Origin: Novosphingobium sp.
GTDB taxonomy: Bacteria > Pseudomonadota > Alphaproteobacteria > Sphingomonadales > Sphingomonadaceae
Length of the DNA stretch: 64,000 nt
Direction of reading: 5' to 3'
NCBI GenBank assembly: GCA_024236215.1
Contig: JACKKX010000002.1
Coordinates: 496,001-560,000 of the forward strand
Below the pieces are notes generated by a model that saw only the letters and a list, made by a program, of their open reading frames with translations, did not search any database and had not been told where the DNA came from. The translations under genes were made by a program, and so were the position numbers. Position 1 is the first letter of the stretch. Each line of letters opens with the position of its first letter. Positions 31,527-58,997 of this stretch are shown one piece after another.

Positions 31527-31603
31527 GGCGGAGTAGCTCAGCAGGTTAGAGCAGCGGAATCATAATCCGCGTGTCGGGGGTTCGAGTCCCTCCTCCGCTA
31601 CCA
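31527..31603 (+). tRNA. tRNA-Met (CAT), integration site of the element
   Basis: The acceptor stem GGCGGAG (31527-31533) pairs with CTCCGCT, with a G-T first pair, followed by A73 and an encoded CCA (31601-31603). The D-arm is TAGCTCAGCAGGTTAGAGC, the anticodon CAT lies at 31561-31563 inside GGAAT...ATCC stems, and the T-arm is TCGGGGGTTCGAGTCCC. CAT could be elongator Met or lysidine-modified Ile; overall sequence resembles alphaproteobacterial elongator Met. Its last 15 nt are repeated at 58983-58997. Confidence 0.93.
31589..31603 (+). repeat. attL: 15-bp direct repeat (tRNA 3' end)
   Basis: CCTCCTCCGCTACCA at the tRNA-Met 3' end is repeated exactly at 58983-58997. Flanking bases differ on both sides, so the shared core is 15 bp. 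It marks the left junction of the integrated element. Confidence 0.85.
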
Positions 31604-31668
31604 TTCAAGTCATTTATCGCTTTGTTTTCAAAGGATAAAATGACTTTTTCGGAAAACCAAAACCACAT

Positions 31669-31681
31669 TCGTTCCCACATT
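31669..31681 (+). repeat. Candidate integrase arm site, left end
   Basis: TCGTTCCCACATT lies 66 nt inside attL. The identical 13-mer occurs at 58853-58865, inside attR. Shared sub-terminal motifs at the two ends of an integrated element suggest arm-type binding sites for the integrase or AlpA protein. Confidence 0.45.
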
Positions 31682-31703
31682 TTGTGCGGGTCGGAATGGG
31701 CTG

Positions 31704-32522
31704 TTATGCCCCTTTCTGGGATCGTGTCGCGGCCTCCACCTGCGTTGCGGCTGTTTTCCCTTCTTGACTGCTTTGACGAATCTTGACGGTGCATCGCACT
31801 GGCTGTTGCGACGTTGAAGCGGTCTTCCGGCAAGCGTCAATGGCATCGCGATTGTCGCGCTGGATGTCAGCGGCCTGCACCAGTGCATTCCATGCCTCGG
31901 GGCTGTCGCTTTTCATCATCCGTGCGCCAGTGTCCCAGCGGGAGGATGCGCCGACCATCCGCGCTGCCATGCGTTCGGGCCAGTGCCAACTTTCCGGCAT
32001 GACACGGGCAATGGTGCCAGGAAGAAAGGACCAAAGCAGTATGCCTGCCAGCAAGGCTCCGCCCGCTACCTGGTAAAGCTGCTGCCGCTGCTCGGCAGCG
32101 GTGCGCGCATTGGAGATGACGCTCCGCATTTCCTGGGCGGCGTGGCTCAAGTCGCTCCGGGCCTGGCTTATACTGTCCTGATCGCTGCGCCGCGCGGCTT
32201 CGGCTGCGGCTGCGATCCGATTGCCAATGCTGTCAGGGGTCATCTGCAATGCCGGATGGCGCGCAATGCCCTTCAGGCTCTCGCTGATCGCGCCCATCCG
32301 CTTGGCCATGTCGGTTAGGGTCGGGCCATAGTCGGGAATGACAATGTCCGCGCGCTCGGCGGCAAGGTGCTGAACCGCGCGGCGCATCAAAGCCAGTTCG
32401 CCTTCCAGGCGGGCGAAAGCCTCGGCGGCGGGATCGCCAGCGGTATCCGGGGGTGCCGGGTCGGGTTCCGGCTCCGGCTCAAGGTCGAGCGGCAGTTCTA
32501 CGTCATCGGTATCGATATCCAT
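31704..32522 (-). CDS. DUF6118-like membrane protein next to the relaxase
   Basis: A protein of 272 aa. An acidic Pro-rich N-terminus (LPLDLEPEPEPDP) is followed by an alpha-helical, probably coiled-coil region (~40-150), a single membrane helix (VAGGALLAGILLWSFLPGT), and a C-terminal part with CRKT and RCTVKI cysteines. Similar proteins sit beside TraA relaxases in sphingomonad plasmids and islands and are called DUF6118 as I recall. The role is unknown. AGGAGA precedes the ATG at 32522, 10 nt after the relaxase stop, so it is co-transcribed with traA. Confidence 0.65.
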   Translation of the reverse strand: MDIDTDDVELPLDLEPEPEPDPAPPDTAGDPAAEAFARLEGELALMRRAVQHLAAERADIVIPDYGPTLTDMAKRMGAISESLKGIARHPALQMTPDSIGNRIAAAAEAARRSDQDSISQARSDLSHAAQEMRSVISNARTAAEQRQQLYQVAGGALLAGILLWSFLPGTIARVMPESWHWPERMAARMVGASSRWDTGARMMKSDSPEAWNALVQAADIQRDNRDAIDACRKTASTSQQPVRCTVKIRQSSQEGKTAATQVEAATRSQKGA

Positions 32523-32532
32523 TACGCTTCTC

Positions 32533-35418
32533 CTACAGGCCCATGCCGATTGGCCGACTCCGCTCCATTGAGATGGAAGCGGCAAGGTCGCGGGCCAGAT
32601 CGCGACCGAGTTCTGTTTTGATGCCAAGCTCGCGGGTGCGGCTGCGCAGCAGGGATTCGACCTGCGCATCGCGCTCCAGCCCCTTCGCCATGTCCGTCAT
32701 GCGGTTGGTAAGCCGCTGCGCGCCCTTGCTGTCGCCATCGCGCTGCATGACCAGGCGCGCCTGCCCAAGCCGTTGCCAGTCGCTGACAAAGCGTTCGGCG
32801 CGCTGCGCGGGGTCGACGCGGATTTCGGCCTCAAGCTGCATCGCCCGCATCGCGCCCTGGCTGCGGCCATCGGCGGCCTCTCGGGCGAGCGAGGGTTGGC
32901 GCTGCAAGGCGCTGGCGAGGTCTGCTGTGCCATAGGGCCGGATCGCGTCGAGCGCCTTTCCGGCTCTCTCCAGCGCCTCGCGCTGGTGTGGCAGGACCGG
33001 CAATCCCTGTTCACGCATCTGCCCGATGTCGGCGGCGGCGCGAGCGTAGCGTTCGACGGCGCGGCGCTGGTCGGACAGGCCAGCCTGATCGCTCGGCAGG
33101 GCTTCGAGCCGATTGGCCTGCGGACGGAAGCCAGCGAAGATGGACTTCGCCCGCTCTGGCACCTGCCGCGCAATCGCCACGATGCGTTCGCGGAACGTGA
33201 TGCCGCGCCGTTCGGCAAACTGCTGCTGGGGCTTGTAGTCGCTCGCCATGTCCTTGCCGCGCTCGCGGCTGAGCGTGCGGACAAGTTTGGACTGATCGGC
33301 GAAGTCGTCGCGCCCATAGTGCAGGGCCAAGCCGTCACGGTGGCGGGACATCGCGACATAGGCCCCGTGGCTGTCCATACCCGGCGTCGCCAGCACATGC
33401 GCCCGGTCCACGGTCATGCCCTGCGCCTTATGGATCGTCGCTGCATAGCCGTGATCGATGTGCGCATAATCCTTGGTGTCGAAGGCGACACTGCGACCAT
33501 CGTCGGTACGCACAGCCATGCGCTGCGGCGTCACCTGCTCAATGGTGGCGAGTGTCCCGTTCTTGACGCCCAATCCCCGCTCGTTGCGCAGGAACATGAT
33601 GCGGTCGCCGCTGGCGAACTGGCGTTCGCCGCGTGTCGCACGGATCGTCACATCGACACCCAGCTCGCCACTGGCGCGCAGCTTTTCGCGCGCCGCGTCA
33701 TTGAGATCGCGCACCTCGTCATTGGTGTGGGTGAGGATTATCTGCGTATCGTCGGGGCTGGCCTGCCGGTCACGATCCCAGCGCTCGATCAGCTCGCCGC
33801 GTGCGGCTTCCCGCGTCTCGGCGGTGTGGACCATGCCGCGTTCGCCATACGCCTGAATGGCAAGACCTGTGCGCCCGGTGGCGAGGTGCCGCGTAGCGTC
33901 CTGTTTCCAGCCGTCATGCTGGCGGCGCACCTCGCTGATTTCGACGCCGCCGTGCCGTTCGTGGATCGACCGGAATGCAGACCCGGCTTCGATGGCTTGG
34001 AGCTGCTGCGGGTCGCCTACCAGGACAACCTTCGCACCTGCATCGGCGGCATGGGACAGCACGCGCTCCATCTGGCGCGTGCCGACCATGCCCGCTTCAT
34101 CGATCACCAGCACATCGCGCGAAGTCAGCAATTCGCGGCCTTGGCCCCACTGATGTTCAAGGCTGGCGATGGTGCGCGATGCAATGCCTGAACCGTGCTC
34201 CAGCCCCTCGGCGGCAATCCCGGACAGCGCCGCACCGCGAACGGTATAGCCCGTGCTCTCCCATGCCTCGCGGGCAACGCCCAGCATCGCGCTCTTGCCG
34301 GTCCCGGCATAGCCCACGACAACGCTGAGGCCGCGCCCATCCGTCACATGCTCGAATGCTGCGCGCTGCTCGCCGGAGAGGATCAGGCCGCGTGTCTCGG
34401 CGCGCGCCAGCGCTCCTTCCCGGCCATTGCCTTTGACGCCATGTCGCTCGCGCTCCGCGAGCAATTCCGAAGCGCGGCCAAGCCGCTGCTCGGTCTCGAT
34501 CATCTGGCGCGATGTGAACCGGTCCTCGCCGCGTCCGTCCTTGCCGAGTGCGACAAGGTCGGATGATCCGCGAACCGCCCTCATCGCCAAATCGAACTGC
34601 TCCTTCCCGTCGCTGTGCCGGTGCACGAACATGGCAAGGTCGCGGTTCGTGAAGGTGGCCTGGCTGCGCGTGATCGCGTCGAGCGCGACAGCGGGATTGG
34701 CGATAATCCGCTCGCCATTGCGCTGTGCGACAGCGCGGTGTTCCTCGATCCGCTCGGCCTCAAGCCCGCGCACGCCCATGCGCGATGCGGCGGGACCGAT
34801 CTTGTCCTGCGGCTCAAGCGCGATGCCCTGCGCCGCTAGGCTGCGGTGATCGATCCGCGCGTCGATATCGAGCTCGGCAAAGCGCTGGTTGACATGATCG
34901 GCCCAGCGCCCGCGCCACTTCTCGACCAGTTCGGCCTTATTCCACTCCCGCACCTTCGCGCCGAATCCATCTTTGCCGACCTCGCGCATGGTGAGCATGA
35001 CATGGGCGTGGGGCTTGGGCTGGCCGTCCGCGCCAATATCCCAATGGACATTGAGATCGGCGATCATGCCTTTTTCGACGAACTCGGCCTCGGCAAACTC
35101 CCGCGCCAGCTCGATGCCCTGTTCCTTGGTCAGCTCGCGCGGAATGGCGAATTCGACCTCGCGGGCAAGCTGCGCGTCCTTGCGCTTCTCGGCGGCCTCG
35201 ACCGCGTTCCAGAGCTTTTCGCGGTCGGCAAATTCCTCCCGCGCGCCTTCCGGCAGCAGCACTTCGGAATGGACGACGCCGTCCTTGTTGGTGAAGTCAT
35301 GGTCGCGGTCGAGGCGTTCGTCATGCAGCCGCTCGGCCCCGCGATAGGCGGCGGCAGCAACAGCGCTGCGCCCGCTCGACCGGCTGATGACTTTGACGGA
35401 GAGGTGGAAGATCGCCAT
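32533..35418 (-). CDS. traA: Ti-type conjugative relaxase/helicase TraA
   Basis: A protein of 961 aa. The N-terminal MobA/MobL relaxase domain (~1-220) begins MAIFHLSVKVISRSSGRSA and includes the metal-binding HAHVMLTMREV motif near 137. The second half is a RecD-like helicase with Walker A GYAGTGKSAML (~380), Walker B VLVIDEAGMVG, and VLVGDPQQLQAIEAG. The relaxase nicks oriT and the helicase unwinds the transferred strand. The start codon lies 30 nt from a candidate oriT. Length is slightly less than Ti TraA (~1100 aa). It is the main evidence that the island can be mobilised. Confidence 0.92.
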   Translation of the reverse strand: MAIFHLSVKVISRSSGRSAVAAAAYRGAERLHDERLDRDHDFTNKDGVVHSEVLLPEGAREEFADREKLWNAVEAAEKRKDAQLAREVEFAIPRELTKEQGIELAREFAEAEFVEKGMIADLNVHWDIGADGQPKPHAHVMLTMREVGKDGFGAKVREWNKAELVEKWRGRWADHVNQRFAELDIDARIDHRSLAAQGIALEPQDKIGPAASRMGVRGLEAERIEEHRAVAQRNGERIIANPAVALDAITRSQATFTNRDLAMFVHRHSDGKEQFDLAMRAVRGSSDLVALGKDGRGEDRFTSRQMIETEQRLGRASELLAERERHGVKGNGREGALARAETRGLILSGEQRAAFEHVTDGRGLSVVVGYAGTGKSAMLGVAREAWESTGYTVRGAALSGIAAEGLEHGSGIASRTIASLEHQWGQGRELLTSRDVLVIDEAGMVGTRQMERVLSHAADAGAKVVLVGDPQQLQAIEAGSAFRSIHERHGGVEISEVRRQHDGWKQDATRHLATGRTGLAIQAYGERGMVHTAETREAARGELIERWDRDRQASPDDTQIILTHTNDEVRDLNDAAREKLRASGELGVDVTIRATRGERQFASGDRIMFLRNERGLGVKNGTLATIEQVTPQRMAVRTDDGRSVAFDTKDYAHIDHGYAATIHKAQGMTVDRAHVLATPGMDSHGAYVAMSRHRDGLALHYGRDDFADQSKLVRTLSRERGKDMASDYKPQQQFAERRGITFRERIVAIARQVPERAKSIFAGFRPQANRLEALPSDQAGLSDQRRAVERYARAAADIGQMREQGLPVLPHQREALERAGKALDAIRPYGTADLASALQRQPSLAREAADGRSQGAMRAMQLEAEIRVDPAQRAERFVSDWQRLGQARLVMQRDGDSKGAQRLTNRMTDMAKGLERDAQVESLLRSRTRELGIKTELGRDLARDLAASISMERSRPIGMGL

Positions 35419-35447: not shown

Positions 35448-35476
35448 ACGTCGGCACGACGTATAAGCGCGCCCTC
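35448..35476. other. Candidate origin of transfer (oriT)
   Basis: A perfect inverted repeat ACGTCG-GCA-CGACGT (35448-35462) is followed at once by ATAAGCGCGCCCTC. The GCGCCCT core next to a short hairpin resembles the nic regions of IncQ/Ti-type relaxases as I remember them. It lies in the 172-nt divergent gap between traA and traC, the usual location. The nick position has not been shown. Confidence 0.6.
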
Positions 35477-35590: not shown

Positions 35591-35896
35591 ATGCGCAAAC
35601 CCCGTGACTTTGATTCGGAACTGAAGGCGCTCGCCGACAAGGCGAAGCAACTGAAAGAACGCCGCGTGCAGCAACTCGGCGAACTGGTGATCGCCACCGG
35701 GGCCGATGCGACCGATGCGGAAACGCTGGCCGGTGCGCTGCTCGTCATCGCGGAAACCAGCGAAGCCCAGAGGAAGGAGGCGTGGCGCAAGCGCGGCGCG
35801 GCCTTCTTTCAGAGCAAGGCGCGCAAGCGTGGCGAAGGAACTCAAGGCCAGCCGGATGGCACTCTCCCGCTTGACGGCGGCGCGGCATCGGCTTGA
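35591..35896 (+). CDS. Conjugal transfer accessory protein, TraC-like
   Basis: A 101-aa charged helical protein starting MRKPRDFDSELKALADKAKQ, with a KERRVQQLGELVIATGAD segment and a C-terminal Gly/Pro tail. This resembles the small relaxosome accessory proteins (TraC type) encoded divergently from traA in Ti-like systems and helps the relaxase bind oriT in that family. The ATG at 35591 follows a GGAG about 12 nt upstream. Its last 68 nt overlap the start of the next gene in another frame. Confidence 0.7.
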   Translation: MRKPRDFDSELKALADKAKQLKERRVQQLGELVIATGADATDAETLAGALLVIAETSEAQRKEAWRKRGAAFFQSKARKRGEGTQGQPDGTLPLDGGAASA

Positions 35897-36158
35897 GGCA
35901 CGAAAGGCGCGAACCGACATGCGCGAATGGCAGGTCAAGCGCCGCGAACGCACGCGGCAACTGATCGAACTGGGCGGCCTGGTCGTGAAGGCAGGGCTGG
36001 TCGAACTGGCCGATGACGATCGGGCCACGCTCTACGGTGCGTTCCTCACCGTTGCCGCCAAGCTGCGTGGCGAGGAACGCGAACAAGCGTTGGTGCTGTG
36101 GAAGCGGAAGGGCAAGCGGGCGTTCGAATGCGAGGCAGAGACCTGTCTTCAGCCATAG
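35829..36158 (+). CDS. Conjugal transfer protein TraD (small Ti-type)
   Basis: About 109 aa from a GTG at 35829 (VAKELKASRMALSRLTAARH) or 100 aa from the ATG at 35856. The core, KARTDMREWQVKRRERTRQL followed by IELGGLVVKAGLVELADDD, is typical of the small TraD relaxosome protein of Ti-type systems (not the coupling ATPase). It reads in a different frame from the TraC-like gene and overlaps its end, so the two are likely translated from the same message. Confidence 0.72.
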   Translation: MAKELKASRMALSRLTAARHRLEARKARTDMREWQVKRRERTRQLIELGGLVVKAGLVELADDDRATLYGAFLTVAAKLRGEEREQALVLWKRKGKRAFECEAETCLQP

Positions 36159-36522
36159 CACCAAAGGGCTTTGTTGCGCGGCAAGGGGCTTCTGGCCATT
36201 TCGATTTCCACGTCAGCTGCATTCCGGCCAAACCGTTGCGAACGCTCGGACGAAAGCACCACCGCATTGGCGCGAACGCCGATCTTGGCCAATTCGGCAA
36301 CGATATATTCCGCGCAGTCCGAGGCCGCTCCACGCCTTCGTTGTCGGTATTGTCCTGTAAATATCCGCCGAACGGATTTTCAACGGTGGTATCGACGCTT
36401 CGCTTACCGCGAATGGGTCGCAGACTTGCAATTGTGCGGTGTTGGCAGGTCTGAGTCCGGCGTTTCAACGCTCATCACTATCGCCAGCTTAAGCTGGTCG
36501 AGAAGCGACCGTTTTGACGGCA
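36159..36522. other. Gene-poor junction between mobilisation and cargo modules
   Basis: A stretch of about 360 nt between traD and the carbonic anhydrase stop. Several short open frames exist but none resembles a known protein. It begins with AAAGGGCTTTGTTGCGC, which looks a little like an insertion-sequence end, but no matching inverted copy was found at the far side of the cargo. It may be a scar of cargo acquisition. Confidence 0.4.
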
Positions 36523-37149
36523 TCATGATGACTCGCCTTCGCCCTCTTCATCAAGAAAGTCGACCGCTCCGCTTGTGAGGGAGTAAAAGGCTCCGACCAC
36601 CTTTAACTGGCCAGCGCGAATGCGCCCGATGATCTCCGGCGAAGACTCTTGCGTTATGGTCTGCACGACGGACAACACATTAGCCCGTGCTGCCGCATCG
36701 ACCAGATCTTCTGACCATGGGTCAGCGCTCAGCACTGCCGGGAGCAGCGGATGCAGCGCTGCATCAATCCGGGCTGAATAGCGCCGCTGCTCGCGGACCA
36801 TTGCAACCGCTGCGCGCATTGCGCCGCACTGCTGGTGGCCCATCACCACGATCAGCGGAACGCCCAGATTGATGACGGCGAATTCCAGACTGCCAATGGC
36901 CGTATTGCAAAGGCTGTTGCCGGCATTTCGGACTATGAACAACTCGCCAAGGCCGCGTTCGAACAGCAATTCGGGCGGGACACGCGAGTCAGAACAGCTG
37001 AGATAGGCCGCGATCGGATGCTGTGCCGCCGCCAGTTGCAGGCGTGCCCGCCGGTCAGTAACCGGGGTAAAGGGTTCTCCGGCCAGAAAGCGGCGGTTGC
37101 CTTCCTTCAGGAGTGTCAGTGCGGCATCCGGGGAGAGGCTTGTCGTCAT
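36523..37149 (-). CDS. Beta-carbonic anhydrase
   Basis: A protein of 208 aa. Zinc ligands are visible in SCSDSRVPPE (Cys and Asp, ~51-60) and VVMGHQQCGAM (His and Cys near 105). It interconverts CO2 and bicarbonate in the cytoplasm; no signal peptide is seen. Its start overlaps the nnrS stop by 4 nt, so it is the last gene of a three-gene operon (membrane protein, NnrS, carbonic anhydrase) read away from FNR-type boxes. The role in nitrate respiration is unclear; bicarbonate supply or pH balance are guesses. Confidence 0.93.
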   Translation of the reverse strand: MTTSLSPDAALTLLKEGNRRFLAGEPFTPVTDRRARLQLAAAQHPIAAYLSCSDSRVPPELLFERGLGELFIVRNAGNSLCNTAIGSLEFAVINLGVPLIVVMGHQQCGAMRAAVAMVREQRRYSARIDAALHPLLPAVLSADPWSEDLVDAAARANVLSVVQTITQESSPEIIGRIRAGQLKVVGAFYSLTSGAVDFLDEEGEGESS

Positions 37150-38360
37150 CCGGGGCGTCCGTCAATGCGCGGTGAGAGATAGATCATCATGCCGCGTAAT
37201 GCCCATGGCAGTATGCCGATCGCCAGCAGCGACGCAGGAAAGAGAAGCATGGGCAATGCATCCCAGTGCAGAGCCGCCCTAAGCCGCAGTACCGCTGCAA
37301 CTTGCACCGCAGCAAAAGCAAGCCATGCCGCAGCAGGCATCGCAAGTGGCCGACCACTGTGCCCTTGCGTCACGCGGGTTACCATGGCCACCATCAAACT
37401 GCACCCCATACCGAGAACGAGCGCATGCGTTGCAGCGATGGCGGGCACCTGTCCGGCAGCGGCGAGCACGGCAAGCACGAAGCTGACCGGGGCCCAGCCG
37501 AGACCGATAACCAATACCCACAGCAGGCCCGGTGCGGTGCGGCGGGGTGTCCAGCGCCACAGCATGAGCAGGGTCAGCACGGCCAGCGCCACAGCTGGTA
37601 ATGCGCGCCACGGCGAACCCCGCCATGCCAGCGCCATGTCTGTCATCAGTAACGGCCAAAGCAGCGCCAGCAGCCAATAGGGGCGCCAGCAGACATAGCC
37701 TTCGACCGCATTGCCCGCGAAAAAGGGGATCATGCGGTGGCATACCGTCAGGAATATACCGAGGGTCAGGCCATGCGTGCCGAGAAGGATCGCCAAGCGC
37801 CTACCAGCCTGCCAATCGGCCAAGATGAAAGCCGAAAGGGCGGCGGTGCCGATCAGCGCAAGCATCCAGCCGGTGAGCGCAGAAATTCCATGCCAGTGCG
37901 GCTCGCTTGCCGTTTTTTGGTGAACACACAGCACTGTCACCAGCACGGCTGCGCCCCAAGTCCACGCGCCCGACATCAAGATGAGTGCGAGACCGAGAAT
38001 AGCCAGCCGGTCGGACCACAGGGCCAACGCAAGCGCCAGGCTGCCAAACGCCATCAAACCGGATGGTGGCAGAAAGCGCCCCGGCGGCAAATCGCTTATG
38101 CCCATCCAGCGTGGGAATACGGTCGAAAGAAAGCCCAGAATGAACGGCATGAACAGCGCATAGACTGTCAATGGCCCGTGCAGCGCTCCATCCAGTCCAT
38201 CGTGCTGGGGCAATGTCAGCGCAATACCATTTCGCGCAGCAAGGTGGCCCGCCCACCAAAGCGACAGCATGACCAGGTTGAACGCCCCGGTAAGAAAGGG
38301 CAGCCGGTGCGGCGCTGCGAAAAGAGGAAGTCGCTGCGGCGACGGGGGGCCCGCATTCAT
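37146..38360 (-). CDS. nnrS: NnrS family heme-copper membrane protein (island copy)
   Basis: A protein of 404 aa with about 12 membrane helices. It has the conserved FGSPHR-like start LFAAPHRLPFLTGAFNL, plus LGFLSTVFPRWMGI (~78), VCHRMIPFFAGNAVEGY (~235), MGCSLMVAMVTRVTQGHSGRP (~325) with conserved His. NnrS proteins protect against nitric oxide and nitrosative stress in denitrifiers. The ATG at 38360 lies in an ATGA overlap with the membrane gene upstream. A second, diverged copy lies at 61020-62219 outside the element. Confidence 0.9.
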   Translation of the reverse strand: MNAGPPSPQRLPLFAAPHRLPFLTGAFNLVMLSLWWAGHLAARNGIALTLPQHDGLDGALHGPLTVYALFMPFILGFLSTVFPRWMGISDLPPGRFLPPSGLMAFGSLALALALWSDRLAILGLALILMSGAWTWGAAVLVTVLCVHQKTASEPHWHGISALTGWMLALIGTAALSAFILADWQAGRRLAILLGTHGLTLGIFLTVCHRMIPFFAGNAVEGYVCWRPYWLLALLWPLLMTDMALAWRGSPWRALPAVALAVLTLLMLWRWTPRRTAPGLLWVLVIGLGWAPVSFVLAVLAAAGQVPAIAATHALVLGMGCSLMVAMVTRVTQGHSGRPLAMPAAAWLAFAAVQVAAVLRLRAALHWDALPMLLFPASLLAIGILPWALRGMMIYLSPRIDGRPG

Positions 38361-38824
38361 GGCGTCCACCCGTGCGCGCCCGCGACGGCACCTGCGATGG
38401 TCAGCAACCCCAGCATTGACAGGATGATGTGCATGGCCTGCAAACGTGCGTGCCATCGTTCATTGCGGGCTTCGCGACGTAAAAGCGGATGGATGACAAG
38501 CGGTTCTGCGATGAACAGGATCAGGACAAACAGCAGCCAGACGAGCAGCATGGCCCACATCCACCAATAGTCCGGACTGGAGAACCTCCACCACAAGTCC
38601 ATTTTCCAGGTCATCCAGAAACCGGAAGCCCCAGTCAGCAACACCCAGAACGCGGCCTGCGGTGCGAAACGCCCTTCGATGCGGTGGAATGCTTCGACTC
38701 GCCGCTCGGGTAGTTCTGATCGCCCGATCGCTGGCAGGATCACCAATGTGACAAACCAGACACCGCCAAACCACCCCACCACGGCGACGACATGCAAAGC
38801 GCGGGCAAGGAACAGATCGTCCAT
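38357..38824 (-). CDS. Four-helix membrane protein paired with NnrS (CopD/DUF2269-like)
   Basis: A protein of 155 aa with four membrane helices. The first helix, ARALHVVAVVGWFGGVWFVT, has a His typical of CopD-like or DUF2269-like heme-binding membrane proteins; other His residues occur in EAFHRIEGRF, PLVIHPLL and AMHIIL. It is upstream of nnrS with a 4-nt overlap. The same pair recurs at 62213-62683/61020-62219, so the two proteins probably act together, perhaps in heme or NO handling. It is the first gene of the operon preceded by FNR-type boxes. Confidence 0.7.
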   Translation of the reverse strand: MDDLFLARALHVVAVVGWFGGVWFVTLVILPAIGRSELPERRVEAFHRIEGRFAPQAAFWVLLTGASGFWMTWKMDLWWRFSSPDYWWMWAMLLVWLLFVLILFIAEPLVIHPLLRREARNERWHARLQAMHIILSMLGLLTIAGAVAGAHGWTP

Positions 38825-38859
38825 CAAGACTGGTCTCGAAACATGGGTTCCACATGCAA

Positions 38860-38892
38860 TTGATAAAGATCATTCACATTGATCAAAATCAA
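38860..38892. promoter_or_regulatory. Two FNR/DNR-type boxes in the divergent membrane-gene/porin promoter region
   Basis: TTGAT-AAAG-ATCAT (38860-38873) has one mismatch to TTGAT-N4-ATCAA; TTGAT-CAAA-ATCAA (38879-38892) is perfect. With activation centred at -41.5, the right-hand box would give a leader of about 20 nt for the minus-strand operon, and the left-hand box a leader of about 20 nt for the porin. That pairing is inference. Confidence 0.75.
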
Positions 38893-38927
38893 TTCTTTGA
38901 TGGTCTGCCGGGGTTAGGGCATGTCGT

Positions 38928-40217: not shown

Positions 40218-40219
40218 GG

Positions 40220-40930: not shown

Positions 40931-40956
40931 TCACGGTCGACAGATCAAGCACGTAT

Positions 40957-49858: not shown

Positions 49859-49861
49859 GCC

Positions 49862-51368: not shown

Positions 51369-52399
51369 CAGAACTACGCATCCCGGACCGGTTGCTGGAG
51401 CCGACGACGGAGCGGGCATCCCCCGTGCTGACCGATGCCATCGGGCGGCGGTTCGAATATCTCCGCCTGTCGCTGACCGACGTCTGCAATTTCCGCTGCA
51501 CCTATTGCCTGCCCGACGGCTATCGCAAAGTGGCGGGGCGCGCGCCCGATCTGTCGCTTGACGAAATCCGCTGCGCGGTGACGGCCTTTGCCCGCCTGGG
51601 GCTGTGGAAAGTGCGGCTGACAGGCGGCGAGCCGACGCTGCGGCCCGATTTCACAAGCGTCGCGAAAGCGGTTGCAGCGGTGCCTGGCATCCGCCGCGTA
51701 GCCATGACCACCAATGGCTACCGCCTGGCAGAGCGCGCAGCTGAATGGCGCGATGCCGGGATCAGCGCGATCAATATCAGCGTCGATTCGCTCGACCCCG
51801 CCCGCTTTGCGTCGATCACCGGGCATGACCGGCTGGAAGAGGTGCTGCGCGGCGTTGCCGCGGCCAAGGCGGCGGGTTTTGACAGCATCAAGCTCAACGC
51901 GGTGCTGATGCGCGGTGTGAATGACGATGAACTGGCGGCGATGGTGGCCTTTGTGCAGGACCATGATCTGTCGCTGCGCTTTATCGAGGTGATGCGCACC
52001 AACGACAATGCCGCGTTTTTCCGGGAGCGCCATGTCGCGGGTCAAAGCGTCATCGCGCGGCTGGAAGCGGCGGGCTGGACGCGAATTGCACGTGCAGTAG
52101 GAGCCGGACCGGCGGTCGAATATGCCCATCCCGATGCCAGCGGACGGATCGGCATCATCGCACCTTACGCAAGGGATTTCTGTGCGAGTTGCAACCGGTT
52201 GCGGCTGTCGAGCGACGGCAAGCTGCACCTGTGCCTGTTCGGTGATGGCGGACTGGATCTGCGGCCCTTGCTGCAGGAAGGCGCTGAAGCAGCGCTGTCT
52301 GAACGCATCGCTGCCTTGACGGCGACCAAAGCGCCGGCTCACCGCCTGCATCAGGGTAGCAGCGGGGCAACCCCGCATCTGGCGTCGATCGGTGGATAG
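51365..52399 (+). CDS. moaA: GTP 3',8-cyclase MoaA
   Basis: A protein of 344 aa, radical SAM enzyme for the first step of molybdopterin synthesis. The N-terminal cluster is CNFRCTYCLPDGYRKV near 40; the C-terminal cluster is CASCNRLRLSSDGKLHLCLF near 275. The protein ends in Gly-Gly, the tail that MoaA inserts into its own active site. It starts in an ATGA-type overlap with ppiC. Confidence 0.95.
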   Translation: MTELRIPDRLLEPTTERASPVLTDAIGRRFEYLRLSLTDVCNFRCTYCLPDGYRKVAGRAPDLSLDEIRCAVTAFARLGLWKVRLTGGEPTLRPDFTSVAKAVAAVPGIRRVAMTTNGYRLAERAAEWRDAGISAINISVDSLDPARFASITGHDRLEEVLRGVAAAKAAGFDSIKLNAVLMRGVNDDELAAMVAFVQDHDLSLRFIEVMRTNDNAAFFRERHVAGQSVIARLEAAGWTRIARAVGAGPAVEYAHPDASGRIGIIAPYARDFCASCNRLRLSSDGKLHLCLFGDGGLDLRPLLQEGAEAALSERIAALTATKAPAHRLHQGSSGATPHLASIGG

Positions 52400-52661
52400 A
52401 GTTCGAGTGACTGAAGTGCAGATAGAGCTTTGCGGCCGACTGGCGGACCAACTCGGCCGACAAATATCCGCAGTCGTGCCCGATAGGGGGCTTGCGGTAG
52501 AAGGATTGCTGGCGACGCTTTCGACCACATTCCCCCCGCTGGAGGTGCCGATTGCCAGCGGGCGAATAAAGGTCTGCGTCAACGATGAGATCGTTTCTCA
52601 GGATTATGTCGTGCAACCGCAGGACGAGGTGGCCTTGTTCCCGCCCGTGTCCGGCGGATGA
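52392..52661 (+). CDS. moaD: Molybdopterin synthase small subunit MoaD
   Basis: A protein of 84-89 aa with the ubiquitin-like fold and the C-terminal Gly-Gly (FPPVSGG) that is thiocarboxylated to give sulfur to precursor Z. Starts are GTG at 52392 (MDRVRVTEVQIEL) or GTG at 52407 (MTEVQIELCGRL); I favour the latter by homology but keep the longer limit. The activating enzyme MoeB is not in the island. It overlaps moaE by 4 nt. Confidence 0.9.
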   Translation: MDRVRVTEVQIELCGRLADQLGRQISAVVPDRGLAVEGLLATLSTTFPPLEVPIASGRIKVCVNDEIVSQDYVVQPQDEVALFPPVSGG

Positions 52662-53128
52662 CCATGCGGGTTGAACTGGCGCTGGCTCCCTTTGATCCGG
52701 CCGAGCGACTGGCGGAATTTTCACGCACTGCCAGCTGGGCGGGAGCGATTGTCAGTTTTACCGGGCTGGCACGCTCTGCGGCGCGCGATGGCACGCTGGT
52801 GTCAGCCCTGGTGCTGGAAAGCTACCGAGGAGTTACGTTGGCGTCGATGCAGACGATCGCCGACGATGCGGCGGCGCGCTTTGACATCAGCGCGGCGGAC
52901 ATTGTGCACCGGGCGGGCACCATCGCGCCGGGCGAGCCGATTGTGTTTGTCGCCACTGCTTCGGCGCATCGCCGTGCTGCCTTCGAGGCCGCGGATTATC
53001 TGATGGACCGTTTGAAAACGGAGGCCATATTCTGGAAACGCGAAGAGGGGCCAGATGGCAACCGCTGGATCGAGCCGACCGCAGAGGATGAGGCTGACCG
53101 TGACCGCTGGAACAATCGACAGGATTAA
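52658..53128 (+). CDS. moaE: Molybdopterin synthase catalytic subunit MoaE
   Basis: A protein of 156 aa. The catalytic lysines are in DRLKTEAIFWKREEGPDGNRW near 114-134; the GAIVSFTGLAR segment near 28 and HRAGTIAPGEPIVFVATAS near 82 are typical. It forms the MoaD-MoaE heterotetramer that makes molybdopterin. The moaB gene starts 2 nt after the stop. Confidence 0.94.
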   Translation: MTMRVELALAPFDPAERLAEFSRTASWAGAIVSFTGLARSAARDGTLVSALVLESYRGVTLASMQTIADDAAARFDISAADIVHRAGTIAPGEPIVFVATASAHRRAAFEAADYLMDRLKTEAIFWKREEGPDGNRWIEPTAEDEADRDRWNNRQD

Positions 53129-53130
53129 TA

Positions 53131-53667
53131 ATGGCCGGAATTGACGAAACGCTCCCTTTCCACCCGCTCAACATCGCGGTGTTGACGGTGTCCGATACCC
53201 GCACCATGGAAACTGATACGTCTGGGGCGCTGCTGGCGGACCGGCTGGTCGGCGCAGGACACCAGCTGGCTGCACGCGCGATCGTGACCGATGATGTCGG
53301 CGCGATCCGCGCGCAGATGCAGGCATGGATCGCCGACCCCGCCGTCGACATCATCCTCTCGACCGGCGGCACGGGTTTTACTCCGCGCGATGTGACGCCC
53401 GAGGCGGTAATGCCGCTGCTGCGCCGGGTTATGGACGGGTTCAGCGTCGTGTTTCATCAGGCAAGTATGGGCACCATCGGCGTGTCGACGCTGCAATCAC
53501 GCGCCTTTGCCGGACAGGCGGAGGACACGTTCATCTTTTGCGTCCCCGGTTCGACGGGCGCCTGCCGCGATGCGTGGGATCTGGTTCTGGGGCTGGAGTT
53601 CGACAGCCGCTACCGCCCCTGTTCGATCGCGGGGCAGTTACCGCGTTTGCAGGATTTGTGCGCATGA
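53131..53667 (+). CDS. moaB: Molybdopterin adenylyltransferase MoaB (MogA-like)
   Basis: A protein of 178 aa with the MoCF_biosynth fold: [19 protein letters not shown] at the start, the [19 protein letters not shown] loop near 72-90, and [19 protein letters not shown] near 131. It adenylates molybdopterin before Mo insertion by MoeA, or is a MoaB paralog of MogA. The stop overlaps moaC. Confidence 0.93.
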
Positions 53668-54140
53668 GCGGACTGTCGCATCTGGATGGCGAGGGGCGGG
53701 CGCGGATGGTCGACGTCGGCGACAAGCCCGTCACCACGCGCAGGGCCGAAGCGCGCGCCGCGCTGCGCTGTAATCCGGCGACGTTGGCGGCGGTCCGGGC
53801 GGGCACGACACCGAAGGGCAGCGTTATTGCCACCGCAGAACTTGCGGGCGTGATGGCTGCCAAGCGCACGGCGGACCTCATCCCGCTGTGTCACCCGCTG
53901 GCGCTAACCAAGGTCGTTGTCGACATTGCCATAGACGACGCAATGCCTGGCTTTTCGATCCGCGCCGAGGTGCGCACCAGCGGGCAGACCGGGGTGGAGA
54001 TGGAGGCGCTGACCGCCGCGACGCTCGCCGCGCTGACGCTGTTCGACATGCTGAAGGCCATCGACCGGACGATGGTGATCGAGCAGGTTCGCATGACCGC
54101 CAAATCGGGTGGCCGTTCGGGCGACTGGACGGCGGCATGA
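53664..54140 (+). CDS. moaC: Cyclic pyranopterin monophosphate synthase MoaC
   Basis: A protein of 158 aa that completes formation of cPMP with MoaA. Motifs: [20 protein letters not shown] (~13-32), [20 protein letters not shown] (~66-85), and [19 protein letters not shown] near 112. ATG at 53664 overlaps the moaB stop, and its own stop overlaps moeA. Confidence 0.95.
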
Positions 54141-55321
54141 TCAGCTATGCAGAGGCAATCCGGCTGATCGAGGAGACCGTCACGCCGCTGGGTGTGGAAC
54201 GATGTGCCTTCGCCGAATGTGCCGGGCGGATCCTTGCCGAACCGCTCCATGTCCGCTGCGCCGCACCGCGCGTACCGGTGGCGGCGATGGACGGCTATGC
54301 AGTCTGTGACGGCACGACCCGGCCCGGCGAACCTTTGACAGTGATTGGTGAAAGCCGCGCCGGTTCCGGCTTTTCCGGCACGCTCGCTCCCGGCCGGGCG
54401 GTGCGCATTTTTACCGGCGCACCGATGCCCGATGGCGCGGATCGGTGCATCATGCAGGAATATGCACGCCGCGATGGCGACCAGGTGCGCTTCACCGACG
54501 GCTACGGCCCCGGCTGGCACGTCCGTGCTGCGGGTAGTGACTTTGCCGCAGGCGATATGCTGCTGGCGGCGGGCACCCGGCTGACCCCGCGCGCGATGAT
54601 TGCGGCGGCAGCAGCGGATGTCGCCAGCCTGACCGTGGCACGGCCGGCGCGCGTCGCTATCATCGGCACCGGCGACGAACTGGCGGCACCGGGCAGTGCC
54701 CATCTGCGCGCCGACGCCATTCCCGACAGCGTGACTTATGGCGTGTCTGCCATGGTACAGCAGGCGGGTGCGCTGGCCGTACGCCGCTCCATCGGGCTGG
54801 ATGATCTGGCGGCGCTGGAAAAAGAAGCCGGTGAGGCGCTGGCTGAGGCTGATCTGGTCATCGTCACCGGCGGCGCTTCGGTGGGCGAGCGGGATTTTGC
54901 CAAGCCGATGTTTGCCCCTCATGGCCTTGAGATCTTTTTCTCCAAGGTTGCCATCAAGCCTGGCAAGCCGGTCTGGCTGGGACGCGCGAAGGAAACATGG
55001 GTGCTGGGCCTGCCGGGCAATCCGACCTCTGCGATGGTCACCGCGCGGTTGATTCTGGTACCCTTGCTTGCCCGGTTCCACGGCCAGCCGCTGGCCAGCG
55101 TCCTGCACTGGCGCAGCTTGCCGCTGGCCACCGCGATGGGCGCGACCGGGACGCGCGAGACCTTCGTGAGGGCGCGATGGGATGCCATTGGGCTGTCCCC
55201 GTTGGGCAATCAGCACAGCGGGGCACAGCATGCGCTTGTTGAAGCGGACTGGCTTATCCGGTGCCCGCCCGATCAGGCGGCGCTCGATGCTGGAACGCCG
55301 GTCACCGCGCTGCCTTTTTGA
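54137..55321 (+). CDS. moeA: Molybdopterin molybdotransferase MoeA
   Basis: A protein of 394 aa that inserts molybdate into adenylated molybdopterin. It has [20 protein letters not shown] (~50-69), IIGTGDEL near 176, [17 protein letters not shown] near 242, and the [12 protein letters not shown] motif near 294. It is the last gene of the 12-gene narK-moeA unit and is convergent with mobA with a 20-nt overlap. Confidence 0.95.
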
Positions 55322-55910
55322 GCCGCTCTTCCGCCTCTGCCAGGGCGAGTTGATCGTTGACATTGGCGAACGGATCCGGCGTTTCGGTCCACGCGACTTC
55401 GACCATTCCGGCATGACGGGCATAGCGCCATAGCGATTGCCCCCCGCCGGCGATCCACGCATCGATCCCGTCGGGGTCGCACCGCCACAGCCCCGCCATG
55501 GGATGCAATCTGCCCGCGCTGGTCGGCAGAGACGCGGCATGGCCAGCCAAACTCGCCTGCAGCCGCAAGACGAGATCATCAGGGAGAAACGGCATATCGC
55601 ACCCCAGCAGCAGCACCGTTTCGCGGCCCAAGACGCGCGCACCATGCATGGCGCTGGCCAATGCACTGATCGGCCCGATTCCATCGTGGGTGTCGGTCAG
55701 CACCGGCAGGCCCGTGCCCCACTCATCGCTGCCCGCGCGCACCGCGAGTGCCACGGCGTCGCTGTGGCCTCTCGCCCAATCGATCATGCGGTCGATCAGC
55801 CGCTGGCCATTCAGCCGTCGCAGCGGCTTGTCGCCCCCCATGCGCGTGCCATCGCCACCGGCGGCAATGACGATCATGGGAGCATCGGCGCGGGACATTT
55901 CAGGTGCCAA
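55302..55910 (-). CDS. mobA: Molybdenum cofactor guanylyltransferase MobA
   Basis: A protein of 202 aa with the GTP-binding motif IVIAAGGDGTRMGGDKPLRRL at ~13-33 and LLGCDMPFLPDDLVLRL near 100. It attaches GMP to Mo-molybdopterin to form the bis-MGD that NarG needs. The start overlaps the end of the TauE/SafE gene, so these two form a minus-strand pair facing the nar operon. Confidence 0.92.
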   Translation of the reverse strand: MAPEMSRADAPMIVIAAGGDGTRMGGDKPLRRLNGQRLIDRMIDWARGHSDAVALAVRAGSDEWGTGLPVLTDTHDGIGPISALASAMHGARVLGRETVLLLGCDMPFLPDDLVLRLQASLAGHAASLPTSAGRLHPMAGLWRCDPDGIDAWIAGGGQSLWRYARHAGMVEVAWTETPDPFANVNDQLALAEAEERLKKAAR

Positions 55911-56628
55911 GCAGCTTGCCCCCTGCGATCAGCAGAACCAGCGCGAGCAACCGGATCAGCGCCACCCGGGGGAGGCGCGTTGCGCTCAGCCCGCTACCGA
56001 TCAGTCCGCCCGCCACGACAGCACCGACAAATAGGGAGGTTGATGTCGGCAATGCCGAAAGGCTCGCTCCTTGCCCGAAAAGCCCGGCCGCGCTGTTGCA
56101 GAAAATGAAGGCCGCGCTGATGCCAGCCACCGTCCTTGCCTCGGCCCAGCGCATGAAGATGAGAAGCGGGCTGAGGAATATGCCGCCGCCCGTTCCCGTA
56201 AGCCCCGCAACAAGCCCCAGCGCGCCGCCAACGGGCAGGGTCGCCGCTGCTGATGGCGCAACGGGATCCGCATCGGCAACTTGCGGTCGAAACACCAGCG
56301 CCGCTGCCGAACCGAGCAGGATCATGCCCAACAGCCGCCGATACCAGTCGCCGTTCAGCGCGACGCCGCCTCCCAGATAGGCCATCGGGATGGCAGCGAT
56401 TGCGAACATCAGAAACAGGCGAAGATTGAAAGCGCCGGTTCGACGGAACTGAATGAACGCGATGGCCGACACAAACAGGTTTAGCACCAGCGCTAGGGGG
56501 CGCATTTCCTCAGGCGCAAATCCGGTGAGCGCCATCAGCGCTAGATAGGCTGAAGCGCCGCCATGGCCGACTGCCGAATAGAGGGCGGCCGCGCCAAAGA
56601 GGAGGATGGCAAAGACAAGCGGGTCCAT
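55900..56628 (-). CDS. TauE/SafE-family (TSUP) membrane permease
   Basis: A protein of 242 aa with about 8 membrane helices and the two repeated family motifs: SAVGHGGASAYLALMALTG (~18-36) and GLVAGLTGTGGGIFLSPLL near 138. TSUP proteins export or import small organosulfur or other anions. Its location with mobA in a nitrate/Mo package could mean export of sulfite/nitrite-like anions, but this is only inferred. ATG at 56628. Confidence 0.85.
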   Translation of the reverse strand: MDPLVFAILLFGAAALYSAVGHGGASAYLALMALTGFAPEEMRPLALVLNLFVSAIAFIQFRRTGAFNLRLFLMFAIAAIPMAYLGGGVALNGDWYRRLLGMILLGSAAALVFRPQVADADPVAPSAAATLPVGGALGLVAGLTGTGGGIFLSPLLIFMRWAEARTVAGISAAFIFCNSAAGLFGQGASLSALPTSTSLFVGAVVAGGLIGSGLSATRLPRVALIRLLALVLLIAGGKLLGT

Positions 56629-57217
56629 GGCCTAATGAATCGTCTATACGCTGGCTGCCAGCAACCCCCTATGACCTATTACCTCATGGAAGCGACACCA
56701 TTGCGGGCATCAAAAATGACCTGCATCCATAATCCTGGACCATTCCAGCCTTGAAAATTCCAGCCGTGCCCGGATTGCGGACTATTGCGTCACGATCCCG
56801 ATGCAAGCCATTGCAAGGCTTGCGGCGCGTTGATCCATATCGTCCATGACAATGATTGAGAGCCTCTTAGCGACCTGACGAATCGGGGTCGCGAATCGGC
56901 GACGCAGAATATCGTCCCTATCGTCGCAGAATCCGTCCGATGTTGGCGCATTTCTGCGCCGGTATCGCGCAAATACCGCGTACTTGCCGAATTCTCCGTT
57001 CGGCAGCTAAATTTTCTCTACCCCACGGCTTCCCATCGTTAGCTGACGATAGCCGTGCCATGTCTTCTCTAACCGTTCGCTTCCGTCCGCCTGTCTGTGT
57101 TGCCCTGCCTCTTCCCGGCTTCGCTTGCCGGAGGAACGCTCTTGCCAGCGCTCCTTATTCGCCGAATGCTCAGTCCAGTGGGGAACCAATGACGACCAAA
57201 CGATGGAAGAATGTCCC
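56629..57217. other. Region without a clear gene between the cargo and the integration module
   Basis: About 590 nt with no convincing protein-coding gene. It holds one zinc-ribbon-like remnant (listed separately), the presumed promoter region of the minus-strand TSUP-mobA pair, and the leader of the alpA-like gene. Codon-like composition is weaker here than in the genes around it, judged by eye. Confidence 0.5.
56755..56859 (+). pseudogene. Zinc-ribbon protein remnant
   Basis: A 34-codon open stretch between two stops reads KFQPCPDCGLLRHDPDAS and then HCKACGALIHIVHDND. The CPDC...CKAC arrangement looks like a real zinc ribbon, and the codon use suits coding, but there is no start codon and no upstream domain. 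It may be the 3' end of a lost gene at a recombination junction. Confidence 0.35.
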
Positions 57218-57424
57218 ATGTCCAACCTTGAAAAAATCATCCGCCTGAAAACCGTCCTCGCCCGCACCGGGCTGTCTCGCTCGACCATGTATCGCAAGAT
57301 GAACGAGGGCACGTTCCCCAAGCGCGTGCCGATCAGCGTGCATGGCACGGGGTGGTATGAATCGGCGATAAACAACTGGATCGCCAATCCGGCTGGCTAT
57401 CGTGATCCGGGCGCCACGAGATGA
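57218..57424 (+). CDS. AlpA-family regulator / excisionase-like protein
   Basis: A protein of 68 aa with the AlpA helix-turn-helix: KIIRLKTVLARTGLSRSTMY followed by RKMNEGTFPKRVPIS, then GWYESAINNWI. AlpA proteins in P4-like elements activate the integrase gene or act as excision factors. The ATG at 57218 is chosen because the family starts just before the HTH. The stop overlaps the next small HTH gene by 4 nt. Confidence 0.85.
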   Translation: MSNLEKIIRLKTVLARTGLSRSTMYRKMNEGTFPKRVPISVHGTGWYESAINNWIANPAGYRDPGATR

Positions 57425-57612
57425 AAGCGCCACCAATCGAGCCGATTTGCGTCAAAATCAACGACGCGGCACACATGATCGGCGTTGGCCGAACCAAACT
57501 ATACGAATTGATCGCCAGTGGCGAGATTCAAGCGGTTAAGATCGGCAAGGCCACTCGGATCACAACCGCCAGCTTGCAAGAGCTGGTTAGGCAGCAACAC
57601 GAACCTCTATAG
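57421..57612 (+). CDS. Small excisionase-type helix-turn-helix protein
   Basis: A protein of 63 aa: VKINDAAHMIGVGRTKLYEL followed by IASGEIQAVKIGKATRITTA, the pattern of MerR-like HTH_17 / Xis proteins. It is co-translated with the AlpA-like gene and convergent with the integrase (10-nt gap), so it probably takes part in excision control. Confidence 0.78.
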   Translation: MKAPPIEPICVKINDAAHMIGVGRTKLYELIASGEIQAVKIGKATRITTASLQELVRQQHEPL

Positions 57613-57622
57613 GTTCATCCGC

Positions 57623-58792
57623 CTATTCGGCTGTCAGCGTATCGGCATTGGGCGGGCTCTGCAGGTAGTCCGCCCATAGCTTCATCAAGCCGCGCCGCTT
57701 CTCGAAAAAGTCAGTCCGGCGATAGGCCGCTTCGACCTTGTCAGGCAGTTTGTGGGCCAGAGCCTTGTCCGCAACTTCCTTGGGATAGTCAGTGCATTCT
57801 GATGACCAGTCAGTGAAGGCAGAGCGAAAGCCGTGAACAGTCACGCCGCTTATGCCGTCATCGCGAAGAAGCTTGGTCATCGTCATGTCGCTCATCGGCT
57901 TCTTGCCATCTTTGGAAAAGACCAAGCCAGTGTCGTCGGCGCGCTCGTCCCATCGCCTGCGAAGGAGGGCAACCGTAGGTCTGGACAGCGGCACGACATG
58001 GGTCTCTCGCGCCTTCATGCGCTCGCCGGGTATGGTCCAGACGGCGTTGTCCAAGTCGAATTCGGTCCAGACCGCCAGCCGAGTTTCGTTGGACCGGACA
58101 GCGTTGTAGATCGTGAAGCGCAAGGCGTCGCGCCCAATAGTCGGCGCACCTTTCGCCAACTGCCGCATGAGGGCAGGGACTTCAGCATACGGCATGGCTT
58201 CCATGTGGCCGCGTTTGTCATTTTGGCGAGGTAACCCCTTGCGCACGGATCGCAGCGAGACTTCCTCCGGCACCCAACCTTTGACATGTGCGAAGTCCAA
58301 CACCACGCCAATCCGCTGCAACATGCGTCGGGCCGTTTCGGGAATTTCCAACCAGATTGGGGAGAGTGCTTCGACAACGCAGGCGCTATCAACTTGATCG
58401 ACCTGCTTCCTTCCGATCCGGGGAAAGACATGCCGTTCGAAGCCGGACAGCCAACGTGCGTGATGACCCTCCTTCCAACCATCGCCTAGCGTTTCGTGGC
58501 AACTGCGGGTCGCAGCTTCAAAAGTCGGGATGACCTCTCTTGCTTTGCGGCGCTCGGCGACAGGATCGAAGCCTTCACGCACTTGCCTGCGCAACACGCT
58601 CGCCGCTTCTCGCGCCTCGGCCAGCGATATGTCGAGCGCCGAACCCAGGCCGTAGTCGCGACGCTGCCCATTCAACTGCATCCGCAGCATCCAGGTCCGC
58701 GCACCGCTCGGCTTAACCAACAGACAAAGGCCTCTACCATCGACATGGCGTCCGGGCTTGGCATTCTTCACTTTCAGGATCGTCAGCGGCAT
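57623..58792 (-). CDS. int: P4-type tyrosine site-specific integrase
   Basis: A protein of 389 aa with an N-terminal DUF4102 arm-binding domain (VKNAKPGRHVDGRGLCLLV) and a C-terminal catalytic domain. Catalytic residues are visible: Arg in NAVRSNETRLA (~233), Lys in RMKARETHVVPLS, HGFRSAF (~320), His in ALAHKLPDK, and the Tyr nucleophile in EAAYRRTDFFEKR near 357. This family integrates at tRNA 3' ends. Its start is 190 nt from attR, the standard arrangement. All catalytic residues are present, so it may be active. Confidence 0.94.
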   Translation of the reverse strand: MPLTILKVKNAKPGRHVDGRGLCLLVKPSGARTWMLRMQLNGQRRDYGLGSALDISLAEAREAASVLRRQVREGFDPVAERRKAREVIPTFEAATRSCHETLGDGWKEGHHARWLSGFERHVFPRIGRKQVDQVDSACVVEALSPIWLEIPETARRMLQRIGVVLDFAHVKGWVPEEVSLRSVRKGLPRQNDKRGHMEAMPYAEVPALMRQLAKGAPTIGRDALRFTIYNAVRSNETRLAVWTEFDLDNAVWTIPGERMKARETHVVPLSRPTVALLRRRWDERADDTGLVFSKDGKKPMSDMTMTKLLRDDGISGVTVHGFRSAFTDWSSECTDYPKEVADKALAHKLPDKVEAAYRRTDFFEKRRGLMKLWADYLQSPPNADTLTAE

Positions 58793-58840
58793 CGGGTTCG
58801 GGTCCCTGCAAAGGATTCATACCCCCGAATAGGAGGCATT

Positions 58841-58865
58841 TCGTTCCCACAATCGTTCCCACATT
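58841..58865 (+). repeat. Tandem candidate integrase arm sites, right end
   Basis: TCGTTCCCACA (58841-58851) and TCGTTCCCACATT (58853-58865) lie in tandem, 12 nt apart. A partly inverted GGTGGGAA follows. The second copy is identical to 31669-31681 at the other end of the element. They sit between the int start and attR. Confidence 0.5.
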
Positions 58866-58982
58866 CTGGTGGGAATTTACGCAATTCGAAGCGACCGACC
58901 ACGAACGCACTACAACATAAATTGTTGATTTTACAGCGGGCTTAGGGACGCTTTGAAATCGTCTGGGACGAAAGTTATAGCG

Positions 58983-58997
58983 CCTCCTCCGCTACCA
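58983..58997 (+). repeat. attR: 15-bp direct repeat
   Basis: An exact copy of the last 15 nt of tRNA-Met (31589-31603). The upstream bases do not continue the tRNA, so it is only an attachment remnant and not a second tRNA. Confidence 0.85.

Follow-up and report, generated by a model that had tools for sequence, protein, structure and literature searches.

The stretch of DNA analysed here, called the window throughout, comprises 64,000 nucleotides of a Novosphingobium sp. genome (C2:496001-560000 of a 3.08-Mb, 7-contig assembly). This genome is designated G000; other genomes carry G-numbers and retrieved loci carry L-numbers. Within the window, a tRNA-Met gene is followed by a mobilisation module (traA, two traD-like genes and a candidate origin of transfer, oriT), a block of nitrate-respiration genes around narK and narGHJI, and an integration module with an integrase gene, the whole ending in a second copy of the 3′ end of the tRNA gene (Table 1). 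Positions 31604-58997 (27,394 bp) are very probably a site-specific integrative mobilisable element (IME) with a nitrate-respiration cargo. A mobilisable element in tRNA-Met bracketing nar genes had been proposed in a first-pass annotation made from the letters of the window, and the proposal is supported by the ends of the element, by a backbone shared with relatives and by a second nar-bearing IME. The vehicle is of an ordinary kind; the cargo, a nearly complete respiratory set, is unusual.

The 15-bp core that bounds the element occurs three times in the whole assembly, on one strand and always inside 51 kb, the third copy lying at window-equivalent 82237-82251, and the core read backward as a control had no copy in the whole 3.08-Mb assembly. 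The tRNA-Met end repeat of the first-pass annotation is exact, and ten other elements with like ends and backbone argue that it is not due to chance. A recombinase accompanies these direct repeats at the integration site: the integrase, of the P4 type as had been claimed, has three domains (Table 1) and carries the motifs AVRSNE and HGFR plus C-terminal Tyr residues, which we take to be its catalytic residues. The adjoining AlpA- and Xis-like genes were also recovered by their family models, and the proposed TraA relaxase scored 938.3 bits against the TraA_Ti model TIGR02768 (cut-off 590.45) and 258 against the MobQ model NF041496 (cut-off 200). An oriT had been suggested without coordinates; on conservation, we place a candidate between traA and the traD-like genes. 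Its core (ACGTCG-GCA-CGACGT and then ATAAGCGCG) is invariant in 10 aligned elements, locus L007 being left out, and lies upstream of traA in four of four MOBQ plasmids. One plasmid has the identical core; the other three differ from it by a base added in the loop and by a substitution just past it. We take this core to resemble an RSF1010-type nic site.

No VirB, Trb or coupling domains were found among the scanned ORFs of 31604-58997 (small ORFs were not all scanned), so the element would have to borrow a type IV system. An identity as an integrative conjugative element was rejected on the same grounds, as type IV secretion genes of its own were not found in these ORFs. The host genome carries trb and coupling genes at C1:814-834 kb, together with a DUF3363 protein just below the cut-off of the Relaxase model, and this region is a possible helper for the element. 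ORFs o172, o140, o137, o102 and o154 matched no family and were dropped; other frames match homologues better where compared.

Table 1. Features of the nitrate-respiration element and its surroundings (window positions).
Feature	Position	Strand	Evidence or remark
tRNA-Met (cat), integration target	31527..31603	+	ARAGORN
attL core CCTCCTCCGCTACCA, last 15 bp of tRNA-Met	31589-31603		exact repeat
Left end of element	31604..31700	.	89-97% identity over 80-97 bp in 10 other closed elements
DUF6118 protein, after traA	31704..32669	-	PF19613
traA, MOBQ/Ti-type relaxase-helicase	32533..35418	-	TIGR02768, MobQ, MobA_MobL; ORF to 35457, model start at residue 14
Candidate oriT, hairpin ACGTCG-GCA-CGACGT then ATAAGCGCGCCCT	35448..35474	+	conservation
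traD-like 1	35591..35896	+	PF06412
traD-like 2	35919..36158	+	PF06412; ORF 35706-36158, start set by eye
Variable cargo slot	36128..57180	.	homology break points against other elements
Carbonic anhydrase	36523..37149	-	PF00484
NnrS	37146..38456	-	PF05940
CopD-like membrane protein	38357..38827	-	PF05425 below its cut-off; syntenic homologues
FNR/NNR-type box TTGATCAAAATCAA	38879..38892	+	pattern search
Alginate_exp-type porin	38928..40217	+	PF13372
FtrB-type Crp/Fnr activator	40220..40930	-	NF006901, 270 bits, over cut-off
Two FNR/NNR-type boxes between ftrB and narK	40957-40970, 41050-41063	+	pattern search
Double NarK-type nitrate/nitrite transporter, 922 aa	41111..43879	+	TIGR00886 over cut-off, two stretches
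narG	43876..47613	+	TIGR01580, 2152 bits, ~2x equivalog cut-off
narH	47610..49151	+	PF13247, PF14711
narJ	49151..49858	+	PF02613
narI	49862..50563	+	PF02665
PpiC-type peptidyl-prolyl isomerase	50556..51368	+	PF00639
moaA	51365..52399	+	PF04055, PF06463
moaD, ends in -GG	52392..52661	+	ThiS family
moaE	52658..53128	+	PF02391
moaB/mog-type	53131..53667	+	PF00994
moaC	53661..54140	+	PF01967, 175 bits
moeA	54137..55321	+	PF03453, PF03454
mobA-type NTP transferase	55302..55910	-	PF12804
TauE/SafE family transporter	55900..56628	-	PF01925
AlpA-type regulator	57125..57424	+	PF05930
Excisionase-type HTH	57421..57612	+	TIGR01764 over cut-off
P4-type tyrosine integrase	57623..58792	-	Arm-DNA-bind_3, Phage_int_M, Phage_integrase
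attR core	58983..58997	+	exact copy of last 15 bp of tRNA-Met
Left end of second (class B) tRNA-Met element, integrase gene missing	58998..59169	+	relatives' sequence

The element displays the 15-bp core, left end, backbone and slot edges of a tRNA-Met element family that we define here as class A. An integrase scan of species genomes gave 35 loci, and a class-A integrase was present at E<=1e-120 in 29 of 397 genomes of the host's family. Eleven elements of 7.3-27.4 kb were closed, the window's included; they were drawn from the best integrase matches plus G009 (taken as Novosphingobium cyanobacteriorum HBC54), and are not a random sample. Because G009 was opened for its nar genes, the two nar-bearing members of this set, in the window and in G009, give no frequency. 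In nine of the eleven, an intact tRNA-Met terminates in the left core; only 26 bp are present there in G211 and only the 15-bp core in G319, as expected for an element sitting behind another. The right-end 30 bp are identical in all eleven. The left ~4.5 kb (traD-oriT-traA-DUF6118) is common to ten of them, with 85-91% DNA identity to the window in nine of the ten others, and the left homology ends at 36124-36128 in the same proportion (9/10), that of L007 ending at 33916 after 2.3 kb. Homology resumes at 57165-57203 in all ten others, the right ~1.8 kb (alpA-xis-int) being common to 11/11. Matches shorter than 40-50% of the query length were dropped from several of the homology comparisons. 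The agreement of the left and right edges across elements indicates that there is one cargo slot. Elsewhere, PADLOC recognises in it a type IIG-like restriction enzyme (in both G130 and G461) and, in G211, a DrmMI-like methylase; G219 has a methylase recognised by sequence likeness (the gene spans two loci and PADLOC was not applied), and, in our own reading, G365 has an efflux set and other elements have other genes.

Integrases of this family were also seen outside the closed elements. The host genome has a second one at C1:1094246-1095412 (77% identical, with alpA-like genes), and plasmid pYT40 of Porphyrobacter sp. YT40 (L207) carries a class-A integrase (96% identical) with alpA-like genes, adjoining another integrase and near resistance genes; no class-A TraA was found within the 41 kb of this plasmid that were opened.

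The cargo of the window element was described in the first-pass annotation as narK-narGHJI plus cofactor, regulatory, porin and NO-response genes, and all of these are present by domain or family matches. A narG over its equivalog cut-off, together with narH, narJ and narI, identifies a respiratory nitrate reductase NarGHI, and the reading frames of NarG, NarH and NarI are open. The cofactor set also stood, and is larger than had been described, as it holds moaD and moaC too. The cofactor path (MoaA, B, C, D, E, MoeA, MobA) looks complete except for the MoaD-activating enzyme, which was not searched for; the host genome has a second MoaC. Boxes of the form TTGAT-N4-ATCAA occur three times in the 64 kb compared to 0.06 expected, a number reached in none of 100 shuffles, and all three lie in the cargo, in two promoter gaps between divergent genes. 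They are likely sites of control by the FtrB-type activator. A genome search for nirK gave no match over the cut-off and one weak partial match; nirS, nor and nos lay outside this search. With no copper nitrite reductase over the cut-off, and other nitrite reductases outside the search, nitrite is likely the product of nitrate reduction here. A short frame at C2:563795-564178 (L069 3795-4178, minus strand) gives a weak partial copper nitrite reductase match far below the cut-off.

From the families of the proteins and the repeats, we infer that the P4-type integrase, aided by the AlpA- and excisionase-type proteins, would recombine the 15-bp core at the 3′ end of tRNA-Met. TraA would nick the candidate oriT and pilot one strand, and a borrowed type IV system, perhaps encoded by the trb and coupling genes of the host, would move the element. 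The cargo is expected to let a recipient respire nitrate to nitrite when oxygen is low, and it is plausible that an aerobe could gain nitrate respiration in one step.

The same int-tra-nar order, which the first-pass annotation had proposed to seek elsewhere, exists in G009, where a syntenic nar IME of 26,794 bp lies between tRNA-Met (77/77) and an identical 15-bp core. We compared the two in a quick NarG+H+K tree of 25 rows, drawn from 24 of the 41 NarG-bearing genomes of the family plus one from another family. The window genes pair with those of G338, from another genus (support 100), and the G009 genes with those of G055 (support 98). A sisterhood of G000 and G009 was rejected for nar by the approximately unbiased (AU) test (p-AU = 3.5e-117), as it was for the middle (p = 3.8e-6) and the left part (p = 3.2e-54) of the cargo. 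In the integrase tree, the window gene pairs with its counterpart in G365, which lacks nar, and not with the one in G009 (p-AU for G000+G009 = 6.4e-26); rows covered >=85% of the query in that tree and >=70% in the TraA tree, L012 was omitted as a duplicate of G461, and the TraA tree was weakly resolved (p = 0.24) and was not used. Since both the nar genes and the integrase of G009 belong to other lineages than those of the window, the slot either received nar twice, or received it once and had most of it swapped later.

The second of these histories would have nar loaded once into an ancestor of the IME, with G009 keeping the older form and the window lineage replacing its left part, nar and middle through homologous recombination with a G338-like cluster. 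The edges and orientation of the cargo are alike in the window element and in G009, and tauE stands at the edge only in G000, G009 and G055 among 15 nar contigs with flanks, some of which end early. The right-end cargo tree (moaE, moaB, moeA, mobA; 9 rows) groups G000 moderately well (82/87) with G009 and G055, and there G000+G009 is not rejected (p = 0.35); this part of the cargo may share its history with G009, which weighs for a single loading. However, the integrases are of different lineages, the nar, middle and left trees reject the grouping, and around the cluster of G055, which has like edges, a search of 40 kb found no class-A backbone. We regard a single loading as less likely but a serious alternative, and favour two separate loadings of the slot. 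Two related elements with different nar versions at one site in two species suggest that the ability may be passed around as a package. That sphingomonads pass nitrate respiration among themselves as an interchangeable cartridge, the tRNA-Met IME slot having been loaded at least twice from separate nar lineages, is a broader proposal for which we put the chances at even.

The proteins of a further locus (L038, from a metagenome-assembled genome titled Sphingobium sp. HKST-UBA133) are identical to those of the window from the integrase C-terminus to NarH. The window genome groups with G009, taken as Novosphingobium, unlike this title; one of the names may be wrong.

NarG is patchy in the group, being found in 4 of 58 other genomes of the genus and in 37 of 397 genomes of the family at E<=1e-200, two of these partial. 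Other carriers are visible. The nar cluster of G338 (C3; L191, L192, L234) lies between traG/trb genes and an anaerobic ribonucleotide reductase gene with a relaxase-like DUF3363 protein, and it is probably on a conjugative element because it is flanked by this trb/traG system and the relaxase-like gene. A nar contig of G034 (C35; L065-L066) has a P4-type integrase beside tRNA-Pro, with no second repeat in the contig; an IS240-type transposase adjoins tauE in G055; and G332 (C1; L243-L244) has an integrase 64% related to that of the window directly after its nar operon and ppiC, not at tRNA-Met. None of three query integrases was found in the nar stretches of G175, G263, G417, G115, G351, G392, G297 and G001, which were given no wider search for mobile genes.

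We then considered the right side of the element. The first-pass annotation had suggested an empty site in relatives joining 31603 directly to 58998. Such a junction does occur, as tRNA-Met followed by that sequence (77-97%) in G005, G006, G011, G013, G016 and G018, but there the sequence is the end of another element with an integrase of its own, whole or partial; the junction displays the site lacking the window element and not empty chromosome. The reading of 58998 onward as chromosome was rejected, since the 172 bp found there are the left end of a class-B element. These 172 bp directly follow tRNA-Met in G005, G006, G011 and G016 (92-97%) and are 98% identical to L011; in L011 and L030, the class-B left end follows the attR of class-A elements. 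Its position behind tRNA-Met or behind a class-A attR indicates that tRNA-Met hosts tandem elements. At G005, G006, G013, G018, L011 and L030, a class-B integrase begins ~178 bp into the element, with partial matches in G011, G016 and G050, and is thus whole in six and partial in three of the ten other loci compared; the same query found none in G000 from 58998 to window-equivalent 84000.

The second element (window 58998-64000 plus L069 1-18251; C2:554998-578251) holds genes for an HD protein, a second NnrS, a small CopD-like-type membrane protein and a DUF2189 protein, and also for a cbb3-type CcoN, a carbonic anhydrase and sulfite-reductase-like proteins, as well as the third att copy. A 219-bp repeat, 93% identical, is present at window 60464-60682 and at C2:577929-578146, one copy standing just before the third att core. 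In G024 (C2; L145), the tRNA-Met has two extra 45-bp copies of its 3′ part downstream, which may mark an array of elements.

Several results weigh against a mobile nar element at this site. No empty site was found among nine relatives compared against the true right flank beyond 82251, and in G024 the DNA matching this flank is on another contig than tRNA-Met. A 25-mer of the circular junction (attP) had no match in viral contigs or in 238 retrieved loci, sets that do not test the strain itself. The oriT hairpin folds weakly (z = -1.9), and a repeat finder set at 8+ bp returned other repeats and not this hairpin, which is too short for it. No class-A int or tra gene was found in the fetched nar stretches of G055, G338, G175, G263, G417, G115, G351, G392 and G297. 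Nor were any seen in the visible part of G213, from another genus, whose contig ends inside narG and whose nar genes start ~10 kb downstream of a tRNA-Met preceded by homologues of the window's upstream genes.

The missing attP, the neighbouring class-B element without an integrase and the existence of nar clusters without int/tra would all fit a fixed, decayed genomic island, formerly mobile and now a resident nar locus. In contrast, the window element has seemingly intact copies of int, alpA, the xis-type gene, traA and oriT, and of both att cores, as does G009 of int, traA and the att cores, and we consider this explanation unlikely. G213 also shows that nar sits or travels in other ways than on class-A elements, and the nar genes of G319 stand ~6 kb beyond the attR of a class-A element that has no nar of its own. 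Both observations could be taken to mean that nar is ancestral downstream of tRNA-Met and that the IME merely inserted around or beside it. But narG lies <20 kb from tRNA-Met on one contig in only three of 41 nar-bearing genomes (G000, G009, G213); in the other 38, the two are on different contigs or >230 kb apart, although draft contigs do not exclude nearness. Several single-contig nar-bearing relatives have nar far from tRNA-Met, and in G000 and G009 nar stands between the backbone modules, inside the repeats. An ancestral nar locus is therefore highly improbable. One of the findings that the first-pass annotation had named as contrary to its proposal, close relatives with nar at the same place and with the same flanks but no integrase and tra genes, has one near case, G213, on a partial contig; within the limits of draft contigs, the other 38 genomes show no such arrangement.

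Together, these results point to the IME as a concrete carrier for the patchy nitrate respiration of sphingomonads. The prediction is that an aerobe can gain the trait with its cofactor supply and control in one transfer. If the cartridge proposal is true, sphingomonads, regarded as aerobes, would have anaerobic respiration as an accessory trait. With its fixed slot edges, the class-A family would also be a natural system for studying how IMEs load large metabolic operons.

There are precedents for the mobility or patchiness of nar. According to the portions of the published accounts available, transfer of a ~30-kb fragment to the aerobic strain HB27 is reported for the nitrate respiration conjugative element (NCE) of Thermus thermophilus (PMC7694296, PMC5748679). 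Like the window element, it moves its nar operon as a unit, and it carries its own sensors (PMC7694296, PMC5748679). It differs in belonging to an unrelated phylum and, in strain NAR1, in lying on a megaplasmid with insertion sequences (PMC7694296); the available text mentions neither a tRNA-Met site nor a P4 integrase or a MOBQ relaxase (PMC7694296). The narUGHJI-ftrB cluster of Sphingopyxis granuli TFA, seemingly absent from other Sphingopyxis strains (PMC4741004), supports anaerobic growth on nitrate with accumulation of nitrite, and deletion of narG abolishes this growth (PMC4741004, PMC6472365); in 2019, TFA was called the only one of the sphingomonad group with nitrate respiration (PMC6472365). 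As in the window cargo, a sphingomonad nar operon stands beside ftrB, divergently in TFA (PMC4741004), whereas the available portions of its accounts do not assign the cluster to a defined mobile element (PMC4741004, PMC6472365). Among the open-licence PMC papers in capped literature listings, we saw none that describes nar genes on a sphingomonad IME.

The backbone has closer parallels. In the four sphingomonad MOBQ plasmids opened (for example, the Sphingopyxis alaskensis F plasmid NC_008036 and Sphingobium fuliginis KK22 p2), the order TraD-oriT-traA-DUF6118 is like that of the window: DUF6118 comes after traA in all four, one plasmid having two small genes between them, and upstream there is a pair of TraD genes, or a single one in one plasmid. 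They differ in that their TraA proteins are 63-74% identical and no integrase is annotated in the 7.7-9.0 kb stretches opened. Plasmid pPDL2 of Sphingobium fuliginis is, as far as the available part of its description goes, likewise a sphingomonad integrative mobilisable element with its att site at a tRNA 3′ end (PMC3516476); it differs as a replicating plasmid with a tRNA-Ser site and an organophosphate-degradation cargo (PMC3516476), and its site-specific recombination was demonstrated in E. coli (PMC3516476).

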